Of a stretch of 64,000 nt of DNA, positions 30,215-43,021 are shown piece after piece. This DNA is from Halalkaliarchaeum sp. AArc-CO (GTDB taxonomy: Archaea > Halobacteriota > Halobacteria > Halobacteriales > Haloferacaceae). Every line of letters begins with the position of its first letter. Positions within the stretch are counted from its first letter, which is position 1. The position numbers and the translations under genes were made by a program. The stretch lies in NCBI RefSeq assembly GCF_024972735.1, contig NZ_CP087723.1, positions 2,356,001 through 2,420,000 on the forward strand. Reading direction: 5' to 3'. The notes under the pieces are model-generated. The model did no database searches, was not told where the DNA came from, and was given only the letters and a program-made list of their open reading frames with translations.

Positions 30215-32089
30215 TCACCGACGGCCGGGATCTCTCGAGGTGCTCGCAGCGACGGTGTCCGAGGGAGCCCGTATCGATCGGATCAACATTCTCGCACCGA
30301 GCGTTCCGAGCGAAAGGACGCTCCGGAGCCCTTCGTTCGTCCACGTAAGTTCGTCGTTCCCACAGATACTGTACTCCCCGAACTCGCCGAGTTCGTCGTG
30401 GAGCTGAGCGAGCCGGTCTTGCTGTTCCGATTCGGGGAGCTGGACGATCTCGTCGACGGTAGCGATCACCTCCTGAGACTTCTCGAGCCGGGTTTTGACG
30501 TCGTGGTACGTCTCCGCGTCGATCACGCCGAACTCGTGTTTGAGTTCGTTCATCCCGAACGCGGCGTCGTAGGTCGCCTCGACGATCTCGTCGCGGGTCA
30601 TCCACTCGGTTTCGTAACTCAGCATGTGTTTCCAGCTGGGCTGGAGAAGCTGTTCTCGGTGGTCCTCGAGCGTCTCACAGAACCGTCGATATCCGTACTC
30701 TTCGGGGTTTTCGAACCCCGGACTTCCCGGATCGAGAAACGGCGCGAGCGGTGCGGTGAACGGTGCGATCCGCTCGTCGTCGATCGTCTCGAAGAGGTGG
30801 CGGGCGTACGTCACGTCGCCGACCGCGTCGTCGTACGTCTGCTGGGGTAATCCGACCATGAAAAACAGGTCGATCTTGTTACAGCCGTGGTCCAGCGCCA
30901 GCTCCAGGGTTCGTTCCAGCTCCTCGTTCGACGTCGCGAACTTCCCGACGTTCTGTCTGACGGTTTCGTCGTGCGACTCGATGCTGAGCTGGAGACTGTA
31001 GTTCTCGGTCGCGCGATCGAACAGTTCGAACAGTTCCTCGTCTGCCGGGCCGAACAGTTCGAAAATGAACTCGTTTTCCACGTCGACCCCCTCTAAGAGC
31101 CGGAGAAACTCCCTCGCGAAGTCAGGGCCCCCCATGCGGATGTCGTGGATGACGAAGATCGGCCCTTTCGAGAACGCAGTGATGTCTCTGATGTCACGGA
31201 CCAGCTGCTCCGGCGATCGAAACGCCGGTGAGGAGCGGTTGACCACTTCCCGATAGGCGCTGCACGCGCCGCCACAGAAGGTGCAGTCCCGAGCACATCC
31301 CCGGGAGGTCAAAAGAAGCGTCACCGGATCGTCGAGCCAGTTGCGATACGGGATCGTCTTCTTGATGCTGCCGTACTTCACGACCGACCTGAGAACGTAT
31401 TCGTAGGAAGGAATCGAGACGTAATCGAGGTGAGATGGGACGAACTCGAGTGGATTGACCACGGTCTCGCCATCCTCCTTCCAGGTGAGGTTATCCACCT
31501 CGTGGAGGCTGCCGCCGTTCTCCAGGCGGTCGACCAACTGCAACATCGGCTCCTCGGTCGAATCGCCGCGGACGACGTAATCGACACAGTCGTACTCGAT
31601 CAACTCCTCGTGGTAGTACGAGGAACTCAATCCCCCGAAAATCACGGGGGAATCCGGGTGATACTTCTTGACGAGACGAGCAATTTCGATGGATCCGTGG
31701 GAGTGGGGCAGCCAGTGAAGATCGATCCCGAAGTACTTCGCCTGCGACCGCTCGATCTCGGCCTCTGCGTCGTAGTCGGCGTCCGAAAGCATCTGGTTCG
31801 CGAGATTGACAATCTGGACGTCGTGGCCGTTCTCCTCGAGGTAATCCGCTATACTCGTTAGCCCGACGGGATACATTTCGAACACCGGTGACGACGGGAT
31901 GACGTCGCTGATCGGACCGAAAACCTCCGTACGGTTCCGGAAGTCGTAGACACTGGGCGGGTGAAAGAAGACGAGATCGGGCGTAGAACGGAACGGTGAA
32001 GCGCGTGCAGCAACAGCTTTGCCCGCTTTTCGAACCGTCCGCAGTGGCGAGAGGCCGCCGCCGGAAGAGTTGATAGTATCGTTAGTCAC
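30215..32089 (-). CDS. B12-binding-domain radical SAM protein
   Basis: Predicted 4Fe-4S radical SAM enzyme with an N-terminal cobalamin-type Rossmann domain. The start is uncertain: a GTG at 32089 (624 residues) is used here because the 58 extra residues back to a TTG at 32263 look unconserved. The Rossmann-like part has FFHPPSVYDF and GIDLHWLPHSHG (residues 122-132), resembling the DxHxxG cobalamin motif, then PVIFGGLSSSYYHEEL. The SAM-cluster cysteines are C265, C269 and C272 in SRGCARDCTFCGG. Substrate is unknown; relatives methylate or rearrange lipids, tetrapyrroles or nucleic acids. It is divergent from the hydrogenase operon and shares its AT-rich upstream region. Confidence 0.75.
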   Translation of the reverse strand: MTNDTINSSGGGLSPLRTVRKAGKAVAARASPFRSTPDLVFFHPPSVYDFRNRTEVFGPISDVIPSSPVFEMYPVGLTSIADYLEENGHDVQIVNLANQMLSDADYDAEAEIERSQAKYFGIDLHWLPHSHGSIEIARLVKKYHPDSPVIFGGLSSSYYHEELIEYDCVDYVVRGDSTEEPMLQLVDRLENGGSLHEVDNLTWKEDGETVVNPLEFVPSHLDYVSIPSYEYVLRSVVKYGSIKKTIPYRNWLDDPVTLLLTSRGCARDCTFCGGACSAYREVVNRSSPAFRSPEQLVRDIRDITAFSKGPIFVIHDIRMGGPDFAREFLRLLEGVDVENEFIFELFGPADEELFELFDRATENYSLQLSIESHDETVRQNVGKFATSNEELERTLELALDHGCNKIDLFFMVGLPQQTYDDAVGDVTYARHLFETIDDERIAPFTAPLAPFLDPGSPGFENPEEYGYRRFCETLEDHREQLLQPSWKHMLSYETEWMTRDEIVEATYDAAFGMNELKHEFGVIDAETYHDVKTRLEKSQEVIATVDEIVQLPESEQQDRLAQLHDELGEFGEYSICGNDELTWTNEGLRSVLSLGTLGARMLIRSIRAPSDTVAASTSRDPGRR

Positions 32090-32290
32090 GAGGAATCCCT
32101 CACGCCCGAAATGAGGCCGGACGAACCCATAACTGAAGCGGCTATTCCAGCTAAACGACAATAGCGACGGCGTCGAACCTACTTCGGCTATTAAAACATA
32201 GCGATAATCAACTGAAATCGAGGAGCGGATTCCCAATAGATGAGAATTTGTTGTCCATTTCAATTAATATAAACGTTAATAATGAACTGC
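32090..32290. promoter_or_regulatory. Shared divergent promoter region, radical SAM gene / hydrogenase operon
   Basis: A conspicuously AT-rich 200-bp gap in a GC-rich genome. Plus-strand TTAATATA (32264-32271) is 24 bases before the hydrogenase ATG at 32291, giving a leaderless start. Minus-strand GTTTTAATAG (about 32190-32199) is a candidate box for the radical SAM gene. Confidence 0.55.
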
Positions 32291-33478
32291 ATGTCAACAC
32301 TTTCCAATACGTCTCGACGGAACTTCCTTCGGCTGGCGGGGGCGACAGCCGCAGGATCCGTCATCGCCAACCACTCGACGGAGATCGCCTCCGCCTTCGA
32401 GCGGGCGTCCGAGGGGAACATGGACGTCGTCTGGCTCCAGGGACAGGCGTGTACGGGCTGTACAATCTCGACGCTACAGGCCCAGTATCCGACGCTCGAG
32501 GAGGCGCTCCAGCAGTTCCGACTCGACGTGACCTTCCACCCGACGATCATGCCGGAGGCCGGTCCAGCGGCGATAGATGCGATGAGCGACGAGCCGGACA
32601 TCCTCATCGTCGAGGGATCTGTCCCCGTCGACATTCCCGAGGCGGCGACGGTCGGTCGAAACCCCGACGGTTCGGCAAAGGCGGTCGTCGACTGGGTGAT
32701 GGAACTGGCTCCGGAGGCGGAACTCGTCGTCGCGGTCGGTAACTGTGCCTCGTTCGGGGGCTGGCCGGCTGCCCAGAACAAGAAAAGACTCTACGGTCTG
32801 GGCGACAACGTCACTGGCGCGAAAGGGCTCCAGTTCGAGAAGCGCAGCGCAGGGGGCGTGTTGGGGCCCGACTTCACCTCCGGCGCCGACCTCCCGGTCG
32901 TCAACCTGGGCGGCTGTCCGCCCAACCCGGATTACGTGCTGTTGACGCTGGCGACCGTCCTCAACGGTCACATTCCCGAACTCGATCGATACCACCGTCC
33001 GAAGCCCTTCTACGAGCCGCTCGTGCACGACAACTGTCCGCTGCGGGGGTACTTCGACCGTGGCGAGTTCGCAGACAAACCTGGCGGGGAGGGCTGTCTG
33101 ATAAAGCAAGGCTGTGCCGGTCCGTACACCCACTGCGACGACATGAGCCGGCTGTGGAACGACGGGACGAGCGTCTGTCTGAACGTGGGCTCCCCCTGTA
33201 TCGGCTGCATGGAGCCCGGATTCTGGGATCGGTTCTCGCCGTTCCGCGAAGACATCGAGAGCGCCGCCATTCTCGGGAACGTCAGCGCTACCCACGCGGG
33301 GGCGGCAGGCGTCGTCGCGGCCGCAGCCGGCATCGGCGCTCACGTCGCCCGGAAGGCGATGGGCTACGGGAAGTTCGACGACGGGGGAGAACCGCCCGAG
33401 AACGAGGGACCGCCCGGAAACCAGGGACCCTCCGATACCCAGGACCCGCCCGAGAAACCGGAGTCGAACGCCGACTGA
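32291..33478 (+). CDS. hyaA: [NiFe]-hydrogenase small subunit, Tat-exported
   Basis: Electron-transfer subunit with three Fe-S clusters, 395 residues. The twin-Arg signal SRRNFLRLAGATAAG (residues 8-22) sends the folded dimer outside. Proximal-cluster ligands include C54 and C57 (QACTGC), NCASFGG and GGCPPNP; distal and medial ligands are HDNCPL, GCLIKQGC, THCDD and CLNVGSPCIGC. A weakly hydrophobic segment near 335-360 may be the C-terminal anchor, followed by an unusual Pro/Gly/Glu-rich tail. The ATG at 32291 is preferred over one three codons upstream because of the TATA spacing. It is the first gene of an eleven-gene operon. It is most like group 1 membrane uptake hydrogenases. Confidence 0.93.
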   Translation: MSTLSNTSRRNFLRLAGATAAGSVIANHSTEIASAFERASEGNMDVVWLQGQACTGCTISTLQAQYPTLEEALQQFRLDVTFHPTIMPEAGPAAIDAMSDEPDILIVEGSVPVDIPEAATVGRNPDGSAKAVVDWVMELAPEAELVVAVGNCASFGGWPAAQNKKRLYGLGDNVTGAKGLQFEKRSAGGVLGPDFTSGADLPVVNLGGCPPNPDYVLLTLATVLNGHIPELDRYHRPKPFYEPLVHDNCPLRGYFDRGEFADKPGGEGCLIKQGCAGPYTHCDDMSRLWNDGTSVCLNVGSPCIGCMEPGFWDRFSPFREDIESAAILGNVSATHAGAAGVVAAAAGIGAHVARKAMGYGKFDDGGEPPENEGPPGNQGPSDTQDPPEKPESNAD

Positions 33479-33518: not shown

Positions 33519-35057
33519 ATGCCAGAAATCACGATCGATCCGACGACGCGAATCGAAGGCCACCATGGAACCACCCTGCAGGTAGAGGACGGGGTCGTCC
33601 AGGAGGCGAAAAGCGAGATGAAGATGTTCCGGGGTGCAGAGATAATCACGCTCGGTCGTCCGCCAACGGACGCCGCCCAGATCACCGGGATGGTGTGTGG
33701 CGTCTGTTTCCTCTGTCACCGACTGTGCTCCTCGAAGGCGGCCGAAGACGCCGCAATGAACGCCGGCGTCTTCGATGGCCCGCCGCGGAACGCGGTGCTG
33801 CTTCGGGACGCGGCGGAAGGTATCTTCTACCTGTGGAACCACGCCGTCCACCTGTTCGCCCTGGTCGGACCCGACTACAGCGATGCAGTGGCGGGAACCG
33901 GTTTCGACCGACTGGATCCGCTCGAGGGCGACGGCTACATGGGTGCAATCGAGAACCAGCGCAAGCTCATGAAGGCGCTCGCAGAGTTCGGCGGCCGCGC
34001 GCCCCACCCGGTCGGCTACGTCCCGGGCGGTCTCGCGATCCATCCCGACGCCTCGACGATCGCGTCGGTGAAGTCCCGCGTAATGGAGGTCAGCAACTGG
34101 CTCGGACCCACCGAGGCCGTCCCGGACGTGATCGAGAACGTCCAGGCTGGTGAACTGGATCCCGAACTCGGCGAGGGGTTACACGACATCGTCTCGATCC
34201 TCGTGGCTGCAGCCGAGTTGGGCGCCGCCGACATCGGCGAGGGGCCGAACCGGTACTACAGCAACGGCATCTTCGAGGACCCCGAGACCGGCGAGCTCTT
34301 CCTGCCGCGCGGGGTCTATCGCGACGGCTCGATCGAACTGATGACCAAAGAGGAGGTCGTCGAGGGCATCACAGAGGACACCGAATACTCCTGGTACACG
34401 GACGACTCGGGAGGGGCTCCGACCGAAGCAAAGCCGCCGGAGCCGGACCTCGACAAGGACGAGGCCTATTCGTGGGGCAAGGCCCCGCGGTTCGACGGGG
34501 AGTCGATGGAGGTCGGCCCGCTCGCCCGTCTCGTCATCAAGGACGCGGACCCGTTCGACCTCCGGGAGACGCTGGGCGGGGGCGCCGACGAGAGCAACAC
34601 GCTCAATCGGCTGATCGCCCGCGCCCAGGAGGCGCTTCTGGTCCGCGACCAGGTGCTCGAGTGGCTCGACGCGATCGACCCCGCCGAGCCGTTCATGGCC
34701 GACGACTGGACCGACGACTTCACCGGATCCGGCGTCGGTCTGTTCGAACCGTCCCGTGGTGCACTCTCCCACTACATGGACGTCGAGAACGGACAGATCG
34801 AGCGCTACCAGATCATCACGCCGACGCTGTGGAACATCGGACCACGCGACGGCGAGGGACAGCCCAGCATCTTGGAGGAGGCGATCGTCGGAGACGAAGT
34901 CGACAACGTCGACAACCCGCTGAACATCCTCCGGACGATCCGATCGATGGACCCCTGTCTCGCCTGTGCGGTCCACGTCCAGAGTCCGGACGGAGAGTTC
35001 GAGACTGAGATCGAACCGGCCCGGCCAGGCATCTCGGAGGGGGGATGTGATGTCTGA
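33519..35057 (+). CDS. hyaB: [NiFe]-hydrogenase large subunit
   Basis: Catalytic subunit carrying the NiFe(CN)2CO centre, 512 residues. N-terminal ligands are C60 and C63 in MVCGVCFLCH; C-terminal ligands are C480 and C483 in DPCLACAVH. RIEGHHG at residues 11-17 is the usual N-terminal signature. The Arg that normally precedes the first Cys pair is Val here, and an extra Cys stands just before the His. After His486, 26 residues remain, to be removed by the maturation protease; about 15 is more usual. It starts 40 bases after the small subunit and overlaps the cytochrome gene by eight bases. No signal peptide: it is exported with the small subunit. Confidence 0.95.
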   Translation: MPEITIDPTTRIEGHHGTTLQVEDGVVQEAKSEMKMFRGAEIITLGRPPTDAAQITGMVCGVCFLCHRLCSSKAAEDAAMNAGVFDGPPRNAVLLRDAAEGIFYLWNHAVHLFALVGPDYSDAVAGTGFDRLDPLEGDGYMGAIENQRKLMKALAEFGGRAPHPVGYVPGGLAIHPDASTIASVKSRVMEVSNWLGPTEAVPDVIENVQAGELDPELGEGLHDIVSILVAAAELGAADIGEGPNRYYSNGIFEDPETGELFLPRGVYRDGSIELMTKEEVVEGITEDTEYSWYTDDSGGAPTEAKPPEPDLDKDEAYSWGKAPRFDGESMEVGPLARLVIKDADPFDLRETLGGGADESNTLNRLIARAQEALLVRDQVLEWLDAIDPAEPFMADDWTDDFTGSGVGLFEPSRGALSHYMDVENGQIERYQIITPTLWNIGPRDGEGQPSILEEAIVGDEVDNVDNPLNILRTIRSMDPCLACAVHVQSPDGEFETEIEPARPGISEGGCDV

Positions 35058-36012
35058 GAAAAGCGCCGACCCCCGGGAGGTGAACCGCCAGACGGCCGAC
35101 AACTCCGCCGACGGGTGGCTCACGAGGCTCTGGCTCGACGTCGCCGAGCGCTACGAGCGGTACCAGTACCTCGAGGAGGAGGACAAGGAGATACTGGACT
35201 GGCACGGGTGGGGATCTATCGTCTCCCACTGGTCGATGGTACTCGTCACGCTGCTCGCGGCGGCGACCGGTCTCGCGATCTGGACCGGCTGGTACGGGCC
35301 GTTGAACATCGGCATCTGGGACGGCTACCACGTCGCGTTCGTGATCCACATCTGGGCGGGAGTCCTGCTTGCAGTGTTTGCTTTGCTACTGTTCCCGTAC
35401 TACGATCTTGTCGTCGACGGAGAGTCGCCGCTGATCAGCCGCGAACAGGTCAAAGATCAGATCGTCATCACGCTTTCGTTCCTCGGACTGGCCAGTTACA
35501 TCCCCGGATACAAGAAGGCCCGACGGACGTACGACGAGACGACCGGCGAGTGGGCCGGCTACCACCCGATGCAGACGGCGTTCTGGTATGCGACCTGGTT
35601 CTTCGCGATCCTCCTGACGCTTTCGGGATTCGCACTCTGGGCGGAACTCGCGACGGATCCGGCGTGGTGGATCGCCGGAATCGGCTTCCTGGCAGGGACC
35701 GTCGCCTACGAGACCATGCTCCGGATCCACTTCCTGGCGACGATCTTCTTCCTCGTCTCGGTAGGGGTTCACGCGTACTTCCCGCTGTGTCCGAGCAACC
35801 ACGACCTGCTGTTCTCGATTATCCACGGGAAACTGTACGGATGGAGAGTCGACGAGGAGAGCCGACCCGAACGTCGGGGAGAAACGCGATCGAAAGACAG
35901 GCTCACAAAGCGGTTCGACGCGATCTCGAAGCGTCTCGGCACCAGCACGGACGTCCAGGAACAGCTCGGCTCCGAGGCCGACGAAAAAGCCGAAGAGGCG
36001 GATTCGAAGTGA
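35050..36012 (+). CDS. Hydrogenase-linked cytochrome b
   Basis: 320-residue membrane protein of the HyaC/cytochrome b561-type family that takes electrons from the small subunit and passes them to quinone. It begins MSEKSADPREVNRQTADNS with a hydrophilic N-terminus of about 55 residues, then membrane segments near SMVLVTLLAAATGLAIW, VIHIWAGVLLAVFALLLF, ATWFFAILLTLSGFALW and FLATIFFLVSVGVHAYF. Candidate haem-ligating histidines lie in SHWSM, YHVAFVIHIW, MLRIHF and VGVHAYF. A basic then acidic cytoplasmic tail of about 70 residues is longer than in bacterial HyaC. The start overlaps the large-subunit stop by eight bases. Confidence 0.9.
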   Translation: MSEKSADPREVNRQTADNSADGWLTRLWLDVAERYERYQYLEEEDKEILDWHGWGSIVSHWSMVLVTLLAAATGLAIWTGWYGPLNIGIWDGYHVAFVIHIWAGVLLAVFALLLFPYYDLVVDGESPLISREQVKDQIVITLSFLGLASYIPGYKKARRTYDETTGEWAGYHPMQTAFWYATWFFAILLTLSGFALWAELATDPAWWIAGIGFLAGTVAYETMLRIHFLATIFFLVSVGVHAYFPLCPSNHDLLFSIIHGKLYGWRVDEESRPERRGETRSKDRLTKRFDAISKRLGTSTDVQEQLGSEADEKAEEADSK

Positions 36013-36014
36013 CG

Positions 36015-36569
36015 ATGACGGGATCGTCCCTGAACGCCCGGTCGGCGGCGGCAAAACGACGCGACGAAATCGATTGTGCCGAGATTGCGGTGGTCGGCGT
36101 CGGGAATCCGATCATGGGCGACGACGGCGTCGGGAAGCGCGTGATCGACGAGCTGGAGACGTCGTCCGACGAGCGGACGAACGGCGTCGTGCTCACGCAC
36201 GCCGGAACGACCGCGTTCTTCGCGCTGGAGGCGATGAGTGGCTGCCGGAAGGCGATCGTCGTCGACGCGATCGAGACCGGAGCGGAACCGGGGACAGTCC
36301 ACAGGTACAGGTACGTCGACGGCGCCTTCGCCGGCGAAGTCCCGGAGATGACGATGCACGACTTCTCGTTTGCAGAGGCGCTGCGGGCGGGACGAGACGC
36401 GTACGACATCCCGGACGAACTGCTGGTGTTCGGCATCGAGCCCGCCCGGATCGAGGCGACCCTGGAGCTGAGCGACCGAATCGAACGCGGGGTCCCCGAA
36501 CTGGTGGATCTCGTACTCGAGGAACTCGCGACCAAATCTACACGTATCGATGGAGGAGATGAACCATGA
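36015..36569 (+). CDS. Hydrogenase maturation protease (HyaD/HybD/HycI family)
   Basis: Nickel-dependent endopeptidase that trims the large-subunit tail after the active site is built. 184 residues; the fold starts VVGVGNPIMGDDGVGKRVID with the first metal ligand Asp/Glu region (DDGVG). A second is VVDAIETG and the His ligand lies in MTMHDFSF. FGIEPARIEATLELS is the family C-terminal signature. A GTG two codons earlier is an alternative start. It begins just after the cytochrome stop and overlaps the next small gene by four bases. Confidence 0.92.
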   Translation: MTGSSLNARSAAAKRRDEIDCAEIAVVGVGNPIMGDDGVGKRVIDELETSSDERTNGVVLTHAGTTAFFALEAMSGCRKAIVVDAIETGAEPGTVHRYRYVDGAFAGEVPEMTMHDFSFAEALRAGRDAYDIPDELLVFGIEPARIEATLELSDRIERGVPELVDLVLEELATKSTRIDGGDEP

Positions 36570-36772
36570 GCTCACAGTGGTACTGTACGGACTGTGAAAC
36601 GTACATCGACACCGAGGAAATCGAGGAACACGAGGCCGACGACCACACCGTGAAAGGGACACTTCGGCCCGACAGACTGCTCGGCAACGATCCCTGGAAC
36701 ATGCAGATCGAGGCCGACGGGGAGATCGACTCCGCCCCGAGTGTGCGCAGAGACGAGGGGGGTGATGAGTGA
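36566..36772 (+). CDS. Small zinc-finger-like protein of the hydrogenase operon
   Basis: 68 residues; not recognised. MSSQWYCTDCETYIDTEE then EEHEADDHTVKG gives Cys-x2-Cys (residues 7 and 10) and His-x4-His, a C2H2-like zinc site. A charged C-terminal part has the motif LRPDRLLGNDPWNMQIEADG. It starts within the protease stop (ATGA) and its stop overlaps the hypC start (TGATG), so it is locked into the operon and almost surely expressed. Position between the protease and hypC hints at a role in assembly or metal handling, but that is inference from context only. Confidence 0.7.
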   Translation: MSSQWYCTDCETYIDTEEIEEHEADDHTVKGTLRPDRLLGNDPWNMQIEADGEIDSAPSVRRDEGGDE

Positions 36773-37176
36773 TGTGTCTCGGTATCCCAGGGGAGATCCT
36801 CGAGATCGACGGCCTCACGGCGCGGGCGGAGTTCTGGAACGTCGAAAAGGAGGTCAGACTCGACATCGTCGGCGACGAGGTCGAGGTAGGCGACTACGTC
36901 CTGAATCACGCCGGGTTCGCGATCCGGAAGATCCCCGACGACGACGTCGAGGAGACGATCGAACTGTACGAGTCGCTGCTCGCGGGCGACGAGGACGAGG
37001 CGCTCGAGGAGATCGGCGCGACCGACGCCACCCTCGAGTTCGGTGACCGGCCCGCCGCCGTCGACTCGCCAGCGGCCACGACGACGATCGACGGGATCGC
37101 CCAGCGCCCCGAGGCCGGTTCGCGGACAGCCTCGGAGGACTCGACGGAGAAGTCGGAGCGTGACGCGGATGAGTGA
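36772..37176 (+). CDS. hypC: Hydrogenase maturation chaperone HypC
   Basis: Small chaperone that with HypD carries Fe(CN)2CO to the large subunit. The ATG at 36772 gives MCLGIPGEILEIDG; Cys2 must be exposed after Met removal, which decides this start over the GTG one codon earlier. 134 residues is longer than the usual 80-100, because a disordered Ala/Thr/Ser/Glu tail follows the conserved domain (GDYVLNHAGFAIRKIP). Start overlaps the previous stop (TGATG) and the end overlaps hypD by eight bases. Confidence 0.94.
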   Translation: MCLGIPGEILEIDGLTARAEFWNVEKEVRLDIVGDEVEVGDYVLNHAGFAIRKIPDDDVEETIELYESLLAGDEDEALEEIGATDATLEFGDRPAAVDSPAATTTIDGIAQRPEAGSRTASEDSTEKSERDADE

Positions 37177-38272
37177 GGAGACACTCCAGTTTCGCGACCC
37201 CGAGCAGGCCGAGCAGCTTGCCGACCGGCTCGAGGCGCTGATGGCCGAGATCGACGGATCGGTGAACCTGATGCACGTCTGTGGCTCCCACGAGCAGGCG
37301 ATCGCGAAGTTCGGGCTCCGGAGCATGCTCCCCGACGGGCTCTCGCTCCGGATGGGGCCGGGGTGTCCCGTCTGCGTGACGAACATGCCGGAGGTCGACG
37401 AGGCCGTCGCAGTCGCGAAACAGGGGGCGATCGTCGCCACCTACGGCGACATGTTCCGGGTCCCGGGGACGACACAGAGCCTCGCGGACGCCCGGGCGGA
37501 CGGCGCTCGCGTCGAGATCGTCTACTCGGCAAGCGAGGCGGTCGACCTCGCCGAGGAGAACCCCGACGAGGAGGTCGTTTTCTTCGCGACGGGGTTCGAG
37601 ACGACCGCCGCCCCCACTGCGGCGATCCTGGTCGACGATCCCCCGGAGAACTTCTGGGTGCTTTCGGCCCACAAGTACGTCCCGCCGGCGATGGAGGTCG
37701 TCGCAGAGATGCCCGACACCGACATCGACGGCTTCCTGGCGGCAGGCCACGCGGCGACCATCACCGGCTACGGGCTCTTCGAGCCGTTCGTCGAGGAGTA
37801 CGAGATACCAGTCGTCGTGGGGGGCTTCGAGCCGGTCGACGTCATGCTCGGAATCGAGCGGTTGCTCGAGTACATCCGCGAGGACACTGCCGGACTGGAG
37901 AACGCCTATCCCCGGTGTGTGACCCGGGAGGGGAACCGGGCCGCACTCGAGACGATGTGGTCGGTCTTCGAGAAGACGTCCGGCGAATGGCGCGGGATCG
38001 CCGAAATTCCGGGGGCGAACCTCACCCTCAGGGAGGAGTACGCCGACTACGACGCCCGGGAACGATTCGACGTCGAACCGGAAACCGGGGGCCCCGACCC
38101 GCTGACCGAACAGTGCGTCTGCGGCGACATCATGGCCGGCAAGGCCGACCCCGACGAGTGTGACCTGTTCGGCGAGGAGTGTACGCCCGGCAATCCGGTG
38201 GGCGCCTGCATGGTGAGCAGCGAGGGAACCTGCAAGATCTGGCACGAGTACGGGGGACACCCGGACCTCTAA
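37169..38272 (+). CDS. hypD: Hydrogenase maturation protein HypD
   Basis: Fe-S scaffold on which the Fe(CN)2CO group is assembled. 367 residues, typical length. Signature segments are present: MHVCGSHEQAIAKFGLR (active-site Cys), GPGCPVCVT, FATGFETTAP-like FFATGFETTAAP, and the C-terminal 4Fe-4S region with CVCGDIMAGKADP, CDLFGEECTPG and GACMVSSEGTC. The ATG at 37169 lies eight bases inside hypC and precedes MSEETLQFRDPEQAE, consistent with coupled translation. Confidence 0.95.
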   Translation: MSEETLQFRDPEQAEQLADRLEALMAEIDGSVNLMHVCGSHEQAIAKFGLRSMLPDGLSLRMGPGCPVCVTNMPEVDEAVAVAKQGAIVATYGDMFRVPGTTQSLADARADGARVEIVYSASEAVDLAEENPDEEVVFFATGFETTAAPTAAILVDDPPENFWVLSAHKYVPPAMEVVAEMPDTDIDGFLAAGHAATITGYGLFEPFVEEYEIPVVVGGFEPVDVMLGIERLLEYIREDTAGLENAYPRCVTREGNRAALETMWSVFEKTSGEWRGIAEIPGANLTLREEYADYDARERFDVEPETGGPDPLTEQCVCGDIMAGKADPDECDLFGEECTPGNPVGACMVSSEGTCKIWHEYGGHPDL

Positions 38273-38274
38273 CG

Positions 38275-39417
38275 ATGGCCAGTGACAGCACACCGGAGAC
38301 GGACAGGGACGAATCGGGCGGCGGCTCGGGTAACGAATCGGGCGGCGGCTCCCCCGACGGCTCCGGTGACGACTCCGGCGAGGTCGTCACCCTCGCCCAC
38401 GGAGCCGGCGGAGAGGCGATGCGGTCGCTGGTCGACGAACTCGTCGTGCCCCGGTTCACGGACGGCGATCGGACGGCCGGAGTCGGCGAGGGTGGTGTCG
38501 GACTGGCGGCGCTGGACGACGGGGCGGTCCACCCGATCGGCGACGGCTCACAAGCGATCGTCGTGACCACCGACAGCCACGTCGTGACGCCCAGGTTCTT
38601 CCAGGGCGGCGACATCGGCCGGCTGGCCGTGGCGGGAACCGTAAACGACCTCGCTGTGATGGGGGCGACGGAACCGCTCACTCTCACCTGTTCGTTCGTG
38701 CTCGAAGAGGGGACCCCGATCGCCGACGTCGAACGCGTCGTCGAGTCGATGCGGAAAACTGCCCGGGAGGCCGGCGCGACGATCTCGACGGGCGACACGA
38801 AGGTGATGGGCAACGGCGAGATCGACGGGATCGTGATAAACACCGCCGGGATCGCGCACGTGGATGCCGGCGACGCAGTGACCGACGCCGGTCTCCGACC
38901 GGGTGACGCAGTGATCGTCAGCGGGACGATGGGTGATCACGGGATCGCGCTGCTCGCCGAACGCGAGGGGTTCGACTTCACGGGTGATTTGAAAAGCGAC
39001 GTCGCCCCGGTGAACGACCTCGTCCGGGCGGCGATGGCGGCCGGCGAGGTGACGGCGATGAAAGACCCCACCCGCGGGGGGCTGGCGAATGCGCTCAACG
39101 AGATGGCCGATAAGGCGGACGTCGGAATCGACGTGGTCGAACGTGACATTCCGGTCTCGGGAGCGATCGCCTCCGCGGGCGAGGTGCTCGGAATCGACCC
39201 GTTCGCGGTCGCCAACGAAGGGAAGGTCGTGTTCGGGGTGGATCCCGGCGACGCGGATGCAGTCCTCGAAGCGATCAAAGACCGTCCCGGCGGCCAGGAG
39301 GCCGCGATCGTCGGGCACGCAACCGAGGAACATCCCGGGCGCGTCGTCGTCGACACCGGCTTCGGCCGTCGATACATGAGCGAACCAGAGGGGGAAACCC
39401 TCCCCCGGATCTGCTGA
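38275..39417 (+). CDS. hypE: Hydrogenase maturation protein HypE
   Basis: Dehydrates the carbamoyl group on its C-terminal Cys to thiocyanate, the CN donor. 380 residues. It ends in LPRIC, so the reactive terminal Cys is intact. The PurM-like fold is seen in VTLAHGAGGEAMRSLV, AVAGTVNDLAVMGA and KDPTRGGLANALNEMA. The first 37 residues are an unusual Gly/Ser/Asp low-complexity extension (GGGSGNESGGGS) absent from bacterial HypE, with internal DNA repeats. It starts two bases after hypD and its stop overlaps hypA (TGATG). Confidence 0.95.
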   Translation: MASDSTPETDRDESGGGSGNESGGGSPDGSGDDSGEVVTLAHGAGGEAMRSLVDELVVPRFTDGDRTAGVGEGGVGLAALDDGAVHPIGDGSQAIVVTTDSHVVTPRFFQGGDIGRLAVAGTVNDLAVMGATEPLTLTCSFVLEEGTPIADVERVVESMRKTAREAGATISTGDTKVMGNGEIDGIVINTAGIAHVDAGDAVTDAGLRPGDAVIVSGTMGDHGIALLAEREGFDFTGDLKSDVAPVNDLVRAAMAAGEVTAMKDPTRGGLANALNEMADKADVGIDVVERDIPVSGAIASAGEVLGIDPFAVANEGKVVFGVDPGDADAVLEAIKDRPGGQEAAIVGHATEEHPGRVVVDTGFGRRYMSEPEGETLPRIC

Positions 39418-39818
39418 TGCACGAGATAAGCGTCGCCTCCGGCATCCTCGACCGCGCGATCACGGCGGCGGAGGAACACGGCGCCGACCGGATCGACGCG
39501 ATCACGATCGAGATCGGCCGGGCGACCCACGTCAATCCCGAGCAGCTCGTGTTCTGCCTCGAGACGATCGCGGATGGAACGGCGGGCGAGGGCGCGACCG
39601 TCCGAACCGAGACCGTGGATCCGGTTGCGGTATGCGACTGCGGCTGGCGCGACGAACCCGACGATCTGGGACTGGTCGGCGGGTTCGCGCCGGACGTCCG
39701 CTGTCCGGAGTGTGGTGAGCGGACTGAACTCGTCCGGGGACGAGAGTGCCGGCTCGCGAGCATCGAAGTACCGGAGGCTGGTGACAGGACCGAGCAGACA
39801 GCTACCCAGGAGCGTTGA
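39417..39818 (+). CDS. hypA: Hydrogenase nickel chaperone HypA
   Basis: Nickel-binding chaperone that works with HypB. 133 residues. MHEISVASGIL supplies the N-terminal Met-His-Glu nickel site. The zinc ribbon is CDCG...CPECG; the first pair is CxC rather than the usual CxxC, which should be checked against homologues. Its start overlaps the hypE stop, and its stop lies just before hypB. Confidence 0.93.
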   Translation: MHEISVASGILDRAITAAEEHGADRIDAITIEIGRATHVNPEQLVFCLETIADGTAGEGATVRTETVDPVAVCDCGWRDEPDDLGLVGGFAPDVRCPECGERTELVRGRECRLASIEVPEAGDRTEQTATQER

Positions 39819-39826
39819 GAGGACAC

Positions 39827-40681
39827 ATGCACTACGAGAGGACGATCCGACCGATCCGACTGTACCGAACGAACCGAGCCACTCTCCCGCCGGTTCGGTG
39901 GCTCGAGGAACTCGCAGATCGCCTGGGGGCGGCCCGGGCCCACCGGTTCGGCCACGGGGACCACGATCACGGCGAGAGCGCAACCGACGCCGAGGCCGAC
40001 GTGCTGGCGGCGATCCGGGAGCGCGCCGGCGAGATCCACGAGACGCTCGCCCACGACCACGGCGTGTTCGCCGTGGAGTTCGTGGGCTCCACCGGCGGCG
40101 GAAAGACGAAACTCATCGAGGAACTGCTCGAACGCGCCCCGACGGACGAACAGATCGGCGCGATCGTGGGCGACGTCGCCGGCGAGGACGACGCGACCCG
40201 GCTCCGCGAGTACGGGATCCCCGTCGAGAACGTCAACACCGGCAAGGAGTGTCACCTCGATCCGGGCGGGATCGAGACGGCGCTCTCCGCGTTCGATCTC
40301 GAGGAACTGGACACGCTGTACGTCGAGAACGTCGGTAACATGGTGTGTCCGGCGGACTTCCCGCTGGGCGCGACCGTCCGGGTGCTCGTGGTCAGCACCA
40401 CCGAGGGCGACGACGTGGTCGCCAAACATCCCCTCCTGGTGCAGAAGTGCGACGCGGCGGTCGTAAACAAGGTCGACCTCGCCGAGGCGGTGGGAACCGA
40501 CCTGGATCGGGTTCGGGCCGACCTCGCGCGGGTTGCCCCCGACGTTCCGGTGTTCGAAACCGACGCGAGCTCCGGGGCGGGCGTCGACGAACTCGGAGAT
40601 TTCCTGGAGTCGAAACGCGGAGAGCACGGTCACCACGGGCACGATCACGAACACGACCGAGTTCACCATCCCGGCGAGTAG
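39827..40681 (+). CDS. hypB: Hydrogenase nickel-insertion GTPase HypB
   Basis: GTPase for nickel delivery, 284 residues. P-loop VGSTGGGKT at residues 86-94; nickel/zinc site NTGKECHLDPGG; G4 NKVDLAE. Two histidine-rich stretches frame the domain: HRFGHGDHDHGE near residue 39-50 and EHGHHGHDHEHD at the C-terminus, both likely to bind or store nickel. The ATG at 39827 (MHYERTIRPIRLYRTN) is used; a TTG four codons earlier overlaps hypA. It ends three bases before hypF. Confidence 0.94.
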   Translation: MHYERTIRPIRLYRTNRATLPPVRWLEELADRLGAARAHRFGHGDHDHGESATDAEADVLAAIRERAGEIHETLAHDHGVFAVEFVGSTGGGKTKLIEELLERAPTDEQIGAIVGDVAGEDDATRLREYGIPVENVNTGKECHLDPGGIETALSAFDLEELDTLYVENVGNMVCPADFPLGATVRVLVVSTTEGDDVVAKHPLLVQKCDAAVVNKVDLAEAVGTDLDRVRADLARVAPDVPVFETDASSGAGVDELGDFLESKRGEHGHHGHDHEHDRVHHPGE

Positions 40682-40684
40682 CTA

Positions 40685-43021
40685 ATGACAGGCTCACGAG
40701 TCCGTGTCGACCTCACCGTGCAAGGCGTCGTCCAGGGAGTCGGGTTCCGCCCGTTCGTCTACCGGCGGGCAACCGACCACGACCTGTCCGGCACGGTTCG
40801 AAACACTGGTGACGCCGGGGTCGAAATCGAACTTGAAGGGGACGCCGGGAGCGTGGAGGCGTTCCTTGCGGATCTCCGAGAGCGACCGCCGCCGCTCTCC
40901 CGGGTCGAGTCGGTCGAGGTCGATCGAAGAGACGAAAGCGGGGACTCCACGATCGGAGGAAGCGAGGAGTTCCGAATCCTCCAGTCGACCGACGACGACG
41001 GTGGTTCGGGAACGATCCCGCCCGACACCGGAATCTGTGATCGGTGTCTCGAGGACGTCCGGGATCCGGAGTCGCGATACCACCGCTACTGGGCGACCTC
41101 CTGTGTGGATTGTGGCCCCCGATACACGGTCATCCGAGAGTTGCCGTACGACCGACCGCGCACCTCGATGGACGCGTTTCCGATGTGTGACGCCTGCCGA
41201 ACGGAGTACGAGAACCCTGCCGATCGACGCTATCACGCCCAGACGATCGCCTGTCCCGACTGCGGGCCAACGCTGTCGCTTCTGGAACCGGTCGACGGGG
41301 GGGCCAGTCCGGGCGCACAGCGCCGGGAACGCGCGACCGGTCCGGAGGCGATCGACGAGACGGCGCGACGGCTCGCCCGCGGAGAGATCGTCGCGATCAG
41401 GGGTATCGGCGGCACGCATCTGGCGTGTGACGCAACCGATCCCACGGTCGTACAGCGGTTGCGCGAGCGAACGAACCGCCCGGGGAAGCCGTTCGCGGTG
41501 ATGACACCGTCGGTCGACCGGATCCGGTCGTTCGCCCGAGTCTCGGAGACAGAACGGGAGCAACTCGAGGACGTCCGTCGACCGATCGTCGTCCTCGAAC
41601 GGGACGACGAGGACTTGCTCGGCGCCGTCGCACCCGGACTCCACACTGTCGGGGTGATGCTCCCGTACGCGGGACTTCACCACCTCCTGTTCGAAGAAGC
41701 CGTAACCGAAGGGAAACACGTGGCCTCCAGGATCGAGGGTCCGCTCGTAATGACGAGTGGAAACATGCCCGGAGATCCAATGTGTACGTCAGTCGACGAG
41801 ATCTTCGGGAGCCTGTCCGGCGTGATCGATGCCGCGCTGGTTCACGATCGAGAGATCGTCGCCCGGTGTGACGACAGTGTCGTGCGCGTCGTCGACGGCG
41901 ACCGACGGTTTCTCCGGCGATCCAGGGGGTGGATCCCTCAACCGTTGCCTCGCCAGTCCGAGGGATCACCGACGCTGGCGCTCGGAGCGGAGTTCGACAG
42001 CACCGTTGCGCTGGCTCGCGACGACGAGGTGTTTCCCTCTCAACATCTCGGCGACGTCGACGATCCGGCAACCGAGAGGTTCCTCCGGGAAACGGTCGAT
42101 CACCTCGCCGAACTGCTGGGGGTCGATCCGAGCGTCGTCGCCTGCGACGCTCATCCGAACTTCCTCACGAGCAAACTGGCCGCGGAGTACGCCACCGAGG
42201 AACCGATCCGAGTGCAACATCATCACGCCCACGCGGCCTCGCTTCTGGGCGAGCACGACCGCGACCGGGCGATCGTAATCGCCGCCGACGGCACCGGCTA
42301 CGGCCCCAACGGGACGATCTGGGGGGGCGAGGTGCTCGACGCGACGAGAGGCTCCTTCGAGCGGATCGGAGGGCTCGGAACGTTCCGCCTGCCGGGCGGA
42401 GAGGCGGCGATCGAACGGCCGGCGCGGATTCTCGCGAGCCTGCTTTCGGATCCAGATCGGATCGACGAATTGCTGATCGAGCGGGCAGCGCTTTCACCCG
42501 CCGATGCATCGACCGTGCGACAGAGCCTGGAGGCGGGAGTGAACGCGCCGGAAACGACGAGCGCCGGCCGGTTCCTCGACGCGATCGCCGCGCTCGTCGG
42601 GGTCGGGACCGAGCGACGGTACCAGGGCGAACCTGCGATCAGGCTCGAGGCAGCCGCTTCCGGACACGATCCGGTCGACATCGAGATCCCGTACCGACGG
42701 CGCGACGGCGATCGAGTGGTCGACGTGAATCGCCTGACAGAGACTCTCGAAACACTACTCGAGAGGGAACCGGCAGCCGTCGTCGCCGCGACAGCCCAGG
42801 ACGCGCTGGCGCGGGGGCTCGCCGAGATCGCAGTCGACGTGGCCGTCGATCGGGACGTCGACGCGATCGGATTCACCGGCGGCGTGGCGTACAACGAGGC
42901 CATTTCCCGACGGATCCGGGAAACCACCGAATCTGTGGGGTTGGCGTTCCTCGGCCACGAGCAGGTTCCGCCTGGCGACGCCGGGATCGCGTACGGACAG
43001 GCGGTCGTCGCGACGGAATGA
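40685..43021 (+). CDS. hypF: Carbamoyltransferase HypF
   Basis: Uses carbamoyl phosphate and ATP to load the HypE Cys. 778 residues with all domains in order: acylphosphatase-like (VQGVVQGVGFRPFVYRRA, residues 12-29), two zinc fingers (CDRCLEDV...CVDCGPRYT and CDACRTEY...CPDCGPTLS, about 115-205), a YrdC-like nucleotide domain (GIGGTHLACDATDP, near 240), and a Kae1/TobZ-like domain (VQHHHAHAASLLGEH, near 510; GFTGGVAYNEAI near 735). Last gene of the operon; followed by an AT-rich region where transcription presumably ends. Confidence 0.96.
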   Translation: MTGSRVRVDLTVQGVVQGVGFRPFVYRRATDHDLSGTVRNTGDAGVEIELEGDAGSVEAFLADLRERPPPLSRVESVEVDRRDESGDSTIGGSEEFRILQSTDDDGGSGTIPPDTGICDRCLEDVRDPESRYHRYWATSCVDCGPRYTVIRELPYDRPRTSMDAFPMCDACRTEYENPADRRYHAQTIACPDCGPTLSLLEPVDGGASPGAQRRERATGPEAIDETARRLARGEIVAIRGIGGTHLACDATDPTVVQRLRERTNRPGKPFAVMTPSVDRIRSFARVSETEREQLEDVRRPIVVLERDDEDLLGAVAPGLHTVGVMLPYAGLHHLLFEEAVTEGKHVASRIEGPLVMTSGNMPGDPMCTSVDEIFGSLSGVIDAALVHDREIVARCDDSVVRVVDGDRRFLRRSRGWIPQPLPRQSEGSPTLALGAEFDSTVALARDDEVFPSQHLGDVDDPATERFLRETVDHLAELLGVDPSVVACDAHPNFLTSKLAAEYATEEPIRVQHHHAHAASLLGEHDRDRAIVIAADGTGYGPNGTIWGGEVLDATRGSFERIGGLGTFRLPGGEAAIERPARILASLLSDPDRIDELLIERAALSPADASTVRQSLEAGVNAPETTSAGRFLDAIAALVGVGTERRYQGEPAIRLEAAASGHDPVDIEIPYRRRDGDRVVDVNRLTETLETLLEREPAAVVAATAQDALARGLAEIAVDVAVDRDVDAIGFTGGVAYNEAISRRIRETTESVGLAFLGHEQVPPGDAGIAYGQAVVATE

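Follow-up and report, generated by a model that had tools for sequence, protein, structure and literature searches.

The hydrogenase gene cluster

The window, by which we mean the whole 64 000-nucleotide stretch of Halalkaliarchaeum sp. AArc-CO DNA that was analysed, contains a compact run of forward-strand genes that begins with hydA at 32282 and continues through hydB, hydC, hydD, hypC, hypD, hypE, hypA and hypB to the end of hypF at 43021. The large-subunit gene hydB (33519–35057, + strand) is an intact open reading frame encoding an [NiFe]-hydrogenase large subunit of 512 amino acids. It scores 277.8 bits against PF00374 (hydrogenase large subunit; Pfam gathering cut-off 25.8) and is the sole PF00374 gene in the genome at an E value of 0.001 (one open frame, matched as two pieces). 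It is preceded by hydA (32282–33478, start approximate), which encodes the [NiFe]-hydrogenase small subunit and matches PF14720 with 102.4 bits and PF01058 with 90.9 bits (cut-off 27 for each). Downstream lie hydC (35050–36012), a weak match to a cytochrome b membrane anchor (PF01292, 29.9 bits against a cut-off of 30.1; TIGR02125, 24.2 against 121.5), and hydD (36009–36569, start approximate), a hydrogenase maturation protease (TIGR00072, 120 bits against 47.45; PF01750). The maturation genes are hypC (36769–37176; TIGR00074, 67.6 bits, cut-off 48), hypD (37163–38272; TIGR00075, 425.4 bits, cut-off 192.8), hypE (38269–39417; TIGR02124, 376.1 bits, cut-off 251.6), hypA (39417–39818; NF001976 and TIGR00100, each under its cut-off), hypB (39815–40681; TIGR00073, 224.2 bits, cut-off 121.2) and hypF (40685–43021; TIGR00143, 802.2 bits, cut-off 466.1); the starts of hypD and hypE were chosen in this analysis. 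A gene for a B12-binding radical SAM protein (30215–32263) lies immediately 5' of the hydrogenase genes on the opposite strand.

HydA carries a twin-arginine leader (SRRNFLRLAG), recognized by eye, and a plain four-cysteine proximal-cluster set (CTGC/GNCAS/GCPPNP). It has an additional cysteine in the medial region (TSVCLNVGSPCIGC), which may be a fourth medial ligand. Bearing on a possible placement among the group 1 respiratory enzymes are both small-subunit families over their cut-offs, a Tat leader found by eye and by pattern, and a cytochrome b that falls marginally below its cut-off. In common with the group 1 uptake hydrogenases, for which we used Escherichia coli Hyd-1 as the reference, the window enzyme has the Pfam family, the four-cysteine Ni–Fe site, the pendant arginine, Asp478 and Glu13, together with a cytochrome b partner and a maturation protease. 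The standard group 1 NCBIfam models are nevertheless matched under their cut-offs (NF033181, 367.3 against 600; TIGR00391, 174 against 179.5). The enzymes of haloarchaeal relatives have been assigned to group 1a (PMC6176080, in part).

The closest described system is HydABC of Natrarchaeobaculum sulfurireducens AArc1 (pAArc1-02), the large subunit of which is 84% identical, with an identical MVCGVCFLCH motif and Arg160. The gene order, hydABCD-hypCDEABF, is that of the window, although the AArc1 genes are plasmid-borne, have one additional small gene between hydD and hypC and encode a C-terminal tail of 37 residues rather than 26.

For comparison, partly overlapping genome samples were searched at three levels: class (391 genomes), phylum (392) and order (392). 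The family, defined by at least 57% identity, occurs in 27 of the 391 class genomes, three of which have two copies. The 33 family sequences used below are those of the class sample and three related-locus records (a fourth record duplicates a class genome). The 47 non-family sequences come from loci accompanying best matches and from chosen regions; 219 of the 392 phylum genomes had a match.

Residues around the Ni–Fe site and the proximal cluster

The first metal motif of HydB reads TG-M58-V59-C60-G-V-C63-F64-L65-C66-H67, in which C60-G-V-C63-F-L-C66-H67 (33696–33719) contains the N-terminal ligand pair, an additional cysteine and the conserved histidine. The C-terminal metal ligands and the cleavage site lie in D478-P-C480-L-A-C483-A-V-H486 (34950–34976). 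Both CxxC ligand pairs (Cys60/Cys63 and Cys480/Cys483) and the C-terminal DPCxxCxxH with His486 are present, and Glu13, His67, Arg413 and Asp478 are retained. The consensus motifs are RxCGxCx3H for L2 and Gx4PRGx3H for L4 (PMC3325256, in part). HydB has a methionine at the arginine position of L2 (Met58, codon 33690–33692) and keeps the remainder of that motif; in L4, Arg413 and Gly414 are kept and the proline is replaced by Ser412, which our alignment also finds in the enzyme of PDB entry 1e3d.

Alignment to E. coli HyaB (L081, a plasmid record) pairs Met58 with Arg74, Val59 with Ile75, Gly57 with Glu73, Phe64 with Thr80 and Cys66 with Val82, and also His163 with His229 of Hyd-1. A preliminary description of the gene had placed a valine where an arginine normally precedes the first cysteine. 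An arginine is indeed missing, but the register was wrong: Ile or Val directly before the cysteine is ordinary (Ile75 in HyaB), and because the arginine position is two residues before it, the substitution is Arg to Met and not Arg to Val. The extra Cys66 between Cys63 and His67, reported in the same description, is present in the intact frame.

The missing arginine had also been described as lining the active site above the metals. The catalytic pendant arginine, which sits in the canopy over the metals, is Arg509 in Hyd-1 and Arg479 in Hyd-2 (PMC10430524, in part), and its equivalent here is Arg413 (Ser412-Arg413, 34752–34757), kept in 33/33 family sequences and 47/47 others. The L2 arginine adjoins the proximal cluster (PMC5811149, in part), so the structural argument concerned the wrong residue; the HyaB alignment, taken with these two papers, rules out that the missing arginine is the pendant one. 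In crystal structures Arg73L is found with Glu72L, two water molecules and His229 adjoining the proximal cluster; it is cited as conserved, its variants are predicted to disturb a proposed proton reservoir, and that reservoir, with Arg73L, is put forward as part of the trigger for O2 tolerance (PMC5811149, in part). The same source equates Glu72L with Glu73 of Salmonella Hyd-5; because of this adjacent glutamate, and of the Glu73-Arg74 pair in L081, we equate Arg73L with Arg74 of Hyd-1. Going by these related structures, position 58 should lie on the proximal-cluster side and not above the Ni–Fe site. A structure predicted for HydB from an alignment of five sequences had a mean pLDDT of 31.9 and was set aside.

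A possible counterpart exists in complex I, in which Arg121 and Arg141 of the 49-kDa subunit (NDUFS2) are both second-shell to cluster N2, the cluster adjacent to the active site (PMC8042128, in part). The L2 position is 20 residues from RGxE in 78 of the 80 sequences, the distance that also separates Arg121 from Arg141, and from this equal spacing we infer that the L2 arginine is homologous to Arg141. Complex I differs in lacking an Ni–Fe site, and its R141M and R141K variants are laboratory mutants for which partial activity is reported (PMC8042128, in part).

Several other positions set the window enzyme apart from Hyd-1, which has Glu73, Thr80, Asp118 and Pro508 where HydB has Gly, Phe, Asn and Ser, respectively. 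Asn107, at the canopy position of Asp118 (33837–33839), and Ser412, at that of Pro508, are each found in 33/33 family sequences; Asn at the canopy Asp site is a known alternative (PMC9474812, in part). Phe64 is present in all 33 family sequences and in 0/47 others, Cys66 in 24/33 and 0/47, and position 57 is divided between Gly (17/33) and Gln (16/33). The O2-tolerant membrane-bound hydrogenases are called group 1d. They are distinguished by six cysteines at the proximal cluster (PMC10583674, in part) and by Glu at Hyd-1 position 73 (PMC3940037), whereas the window enzyme has the four-cysteine set in HydA and Gly57 in HydB.

The tail after His486 consists of 26 residues (34977–35054) and is the expected target of the maturation protease. 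It was initially thought to be unusually long; it does exceed the tails of 42 of the 47 non-family sequences, but it equals the median of its own family (26, range 20–54, 33 sequences). E. coli HyaB has 15 residues here. Cleaved tails are usually of about 25–32 residues (PMC3325256, in part), a range that includes 26. We take the length as ordinary, and the long tail was dropped as a hallmark of this enzyme.

Distribution of the L2 variant and the residue at position 160

Position 58 is not arginine in 27 of the 33 family sequences (19 Met, seven Lys and one Thr) and is arginine in the other six, while all 47 non-family sequences have arginine. Since the arginine is missing in this majority of the family, the window included, HydB stands apart from enzymes with the full L2 consensus. 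The order search yielded two further family sequences, one with Met58 and one with Arg58. Bacterial coverage was thin: 14 of the 134 plasmid records with a match were examined, two of them from AArc strains, and the remaining 12, ten of them additional to the 47 non-family sequences, all have arginine at this position. The codons ATG (Met58) and TGT are the same in a congener, and between the two hydB genes dN is 0.035 and dS 0.465 (dN/dS of about 0.08), which indicates purifying selection. The shared codons, the selection and the absence of the arginine from 27/33 haloarchaeal family sequences argue that the motif is not noise.

That the enzyme belongs to a divergent lineage, as had been suggested, is supported by the tree, in which a 100/100 branch separates the 33 family sequences from the rest. 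On this tree the presence or absence of arginine at position 58 requires two changes, so that Arg58 was either lost twice or lost once and later regained; the deciding fork is weak (86/79), and a single change is sufficient in 16% of the bootstrap trees. As far as the sequences tell, loss of Arg58 is a haloarchaeal lineage trait. The same variation does occur in a hydrogenase from a group known to live on H2, that of AArc1, although this lies within the lineage and the variation does not extend across hydrogenases generally. No description of the L2 variant was found in the literature at the level of titles and the beginnings of abstracts, with the haloarchaeal hydrogenase papers PMC5437934 and PMC6176080 covered in part. 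The enzyme thus appears to be of a known kind with a lineage-wide second-shell change for which we found no description.

The nearest outgroup consists of the hydrogenases of genome family f15 (L037–L043, L045 and L064–L066) together with L044 (95/94, an open fork), about 43–45% identical to the window enzyme; the f15 genomes are presumably those of Archaeoglobi. These enzymes keep the L2 arginine and Lys160 and have Asp at position 66. Their C-terminal ligand motif begins D-L-C (11/11), in contrast to D-P-C in the other 69 sequences.

A second position varies with the first. Position 160 lies in the segment GGR-x-P-His163 (Arg160-A-P-His163, 33996–34007), in which His163 is the equivalent of Hyd-1 His229. 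It is Arg in 27/27 family sequences without Arg58 and Lys in 6/6 with it. Over all 80 sequences the 58/160 combinations are Arg/Lys (49), non-Arg/Arg (27), Arg/Arg (four, all outside the family) and non-Arg/Lys (none), and the pattern of Arg58/Lys160 against non-Arg58/Arg160 also fits both of the family sequences found later (2/2). It should be seen against the general divergence: 37 of the 512 columns separate the Arg58 and non-Arg58 haloarchaeal groups, and in four of these (58, 146, 160 and 264) the Arg58 group shares the residue that is most frequent in the f15 outgroup. The guanidinium group may have moved from position 58 to position 160, in which case the charge was relocated and not lost. 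We regard this shift as a lead rather than a result, since few evolutionary events underlie the pattern. The fuller proposal, that natural haloarchaeal hydrogenases have had the L2 arginine removed from beside the proximal cluster and its role passed to a K160R substitution three residues before the His229 equivalent, is a tentative one and somewhat against the odds. Were it true, the proton-reservoir or charge function attributed to the L2 arginine could be moved, and these proteins would be ready-made test enzymes for the role of the arginine in the cluster potential and in the O2 response, and for the disputed complex I Arg141 mutants.

Activity and alternative explanations

The reading that we prefer, with a probability of roughly three in four, is that HydABC, although divergent, works as an uptake [NiFe]-hydrogenase of the haloarchaeal lineage that is exported by Tat and anchored in the membrane, and in which Met58 and Cys66 are second-shell changes and the charge probably resides on Arg160; activity, electron path and compensation are deduced here from sequence, conservation, the operon and the same motif in a relative that is reported to live on H2. 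HydD would cleave the tail of HydB, after which the enzyme would be exported through the Tat system. H2 would then be split at an ordinary four-cysteine Ni–Fe site (Cys60, Cys63, Cys480 and Cys483) under an intact Arg413, and the electrons would pass through the small-subunit Fe–S clusters to cytochrome b, the quinone pool and anaerobic acceptors. Met58, replacing the L2 arginine, and Cys66 would be clade-wide changes in the second shell, Met58 being on the proximal-cluster side and not in the Ni–Fe canopy, and the positive charge would probably be taken over by Arg160 near His163.

The terminal acceptor enzymes would be among the seven molybdopterin enzymes that the genome encodes; the best models for the five that were scanned are of the formate dehydrogenase, DMSO, Phs, Arr and Ttr types, all under their cut-offs. 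Two COX1 matches in the genome indicate that the organism also has aerobic respiration. Anaerobic oxidation of H2, with sulfur or DMSO as the acceptor, is reported to provide energy to the AArc groups, which have a solitary hydrogenase gene set (PMC6176080, in part). The motif is carried by AArc-Mg as well as by AArc1. Because AArc1, with the identical motif, belongs to a group that lives on H2, the variant is compatible with H2 uptake. A lineage that apparently oxidizes H2 without the L2 arginine suggests that this arginine is not essential, and paired enzymes with and without it in the same host class offer a means to test its role. For the window organism, life on H2 with anaerobic acceptors is suggested.

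The best surviving alternative, although an improbable one, is that catalysis itself has changed, as the preliminary description also allowed: an enzyme without the L2 arginine would have a lower proximal-cluster potential or altered proton coupling and would thereby differ in bias, in affinity or in how it responds to O2. The predicted disturbance of the proton reservoir by variants of this arginine (PMC5811149, in part) is in keeping with this, as is the report that complex I Arg141 mutants lose the N2 EPR signal while retaining part of their activity, if the residues are equivalent as we propose, the interpretation of those mutants being disputed (PMC8042128, in part). Further second-shell differences point the same way, namely Gly57 (Gln/Glu), Phe64 (Pro/Thr/His), Asn107 (Asp/Ser) and Ser412 (Pro), and the AArc strains do not use H2 under air (PMC6176080, in part). 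However, the canopy Asn and the Ser beside the pendant arginine have the precedents given above (PMC9474812, in part; PDB entry 1e3d), the proximal set of the window small subunit is plain, and Arg160 may compensate. In Hyd-2, which has a standard cluster, replacement of the neighbouring histidine left both catalysis and inactivation largely as they were (PMC5900901, in part), and the occurrence of the same motif in AArc1, from a group that gains energy from H2 (PMC6176080, in part), weakens the proposal further.

It is considerably less probable that the extra cysteines, Cys66 and Cys70, serve the proximal cluster as supernumerary ligands or as a redox switch, an idea borrowed from the six-cysteine O2-tolerant enzymes. 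The restriction of Cys66 to the family fits this idea, and the Arg58 haloarchaeal enzymes, which are without Cys66, have an extra small-subunit cysteine instead (GTCACYGG, 6/6). Yet three non-Arg sequences have Ser66, the 47 others have S, D, P, V, A or T at this position, Cys70 is found in only 11/33 family sequences and also in 5/47 others, and shared descent alone could produce the pattern.

Adaptation to high salt, the possibility raised in the preliminary description, is very unlikely: all 27 non-Arg sequences do come from haloarchaeal genomes or records, but we set it aside because Arg is kept by six of the 33 haloarchaeal family members, and it is kept by the distant haloarchaeal enzyme L034 too, while Met, Lys and Thr share no property that is readily tied to salt. 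The least credible alternative is a decaying or inactive hydrogenase, for which one could cite strain HSR6, which is reported to have a hydrogenase cluster identical to that of HTSR1 and yet not to use H2 (PMC5437934, in part), and two genus g44 enzymes whose small subunit lacks its medial/distal part and which have no adjoining cytochrome gene, but which is opposed by the purifying selection, the intact ligands and the maturation operon, and also by the identical motif in AArc1, from a group that has a solitary hydrogenase and draws energy from H2 (PMC6176080, in part).

The small subunits of the relatives show some further variation. Those of the Arg58 haloarchaeal enzymes (L022–L027, 6/6; also L106) have CSAC and GTCACYGG, with an extra cysteine of their own. 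Nine family small subunits (L028–L033 and L100–L102) do not have the RR[NGD]F leader pattern, unlike the others read, and in two sequences the proximal CxxC has Asp for one cysteine (CSGD in L021, TDAGC in L034). A second, distant type of haloarchaeal hydrogenase (L035, L036 and L071–L073) has the motif RACGVCGAVH, tails of 39–41 residues and open frames of 659–698 residues. In L019 and L020 (genomes G318 and G089, genus g44) the small subunit retains the proximal-cluster domain and then ends in low-complexity or unrelated sequence that replaces the medial/distal domain; no cytochrome b lies between hydB and the protease gene, and the His229 equivalent is Asn. These two family members are possibly degraded or possibly one-cluster hydrogenases.
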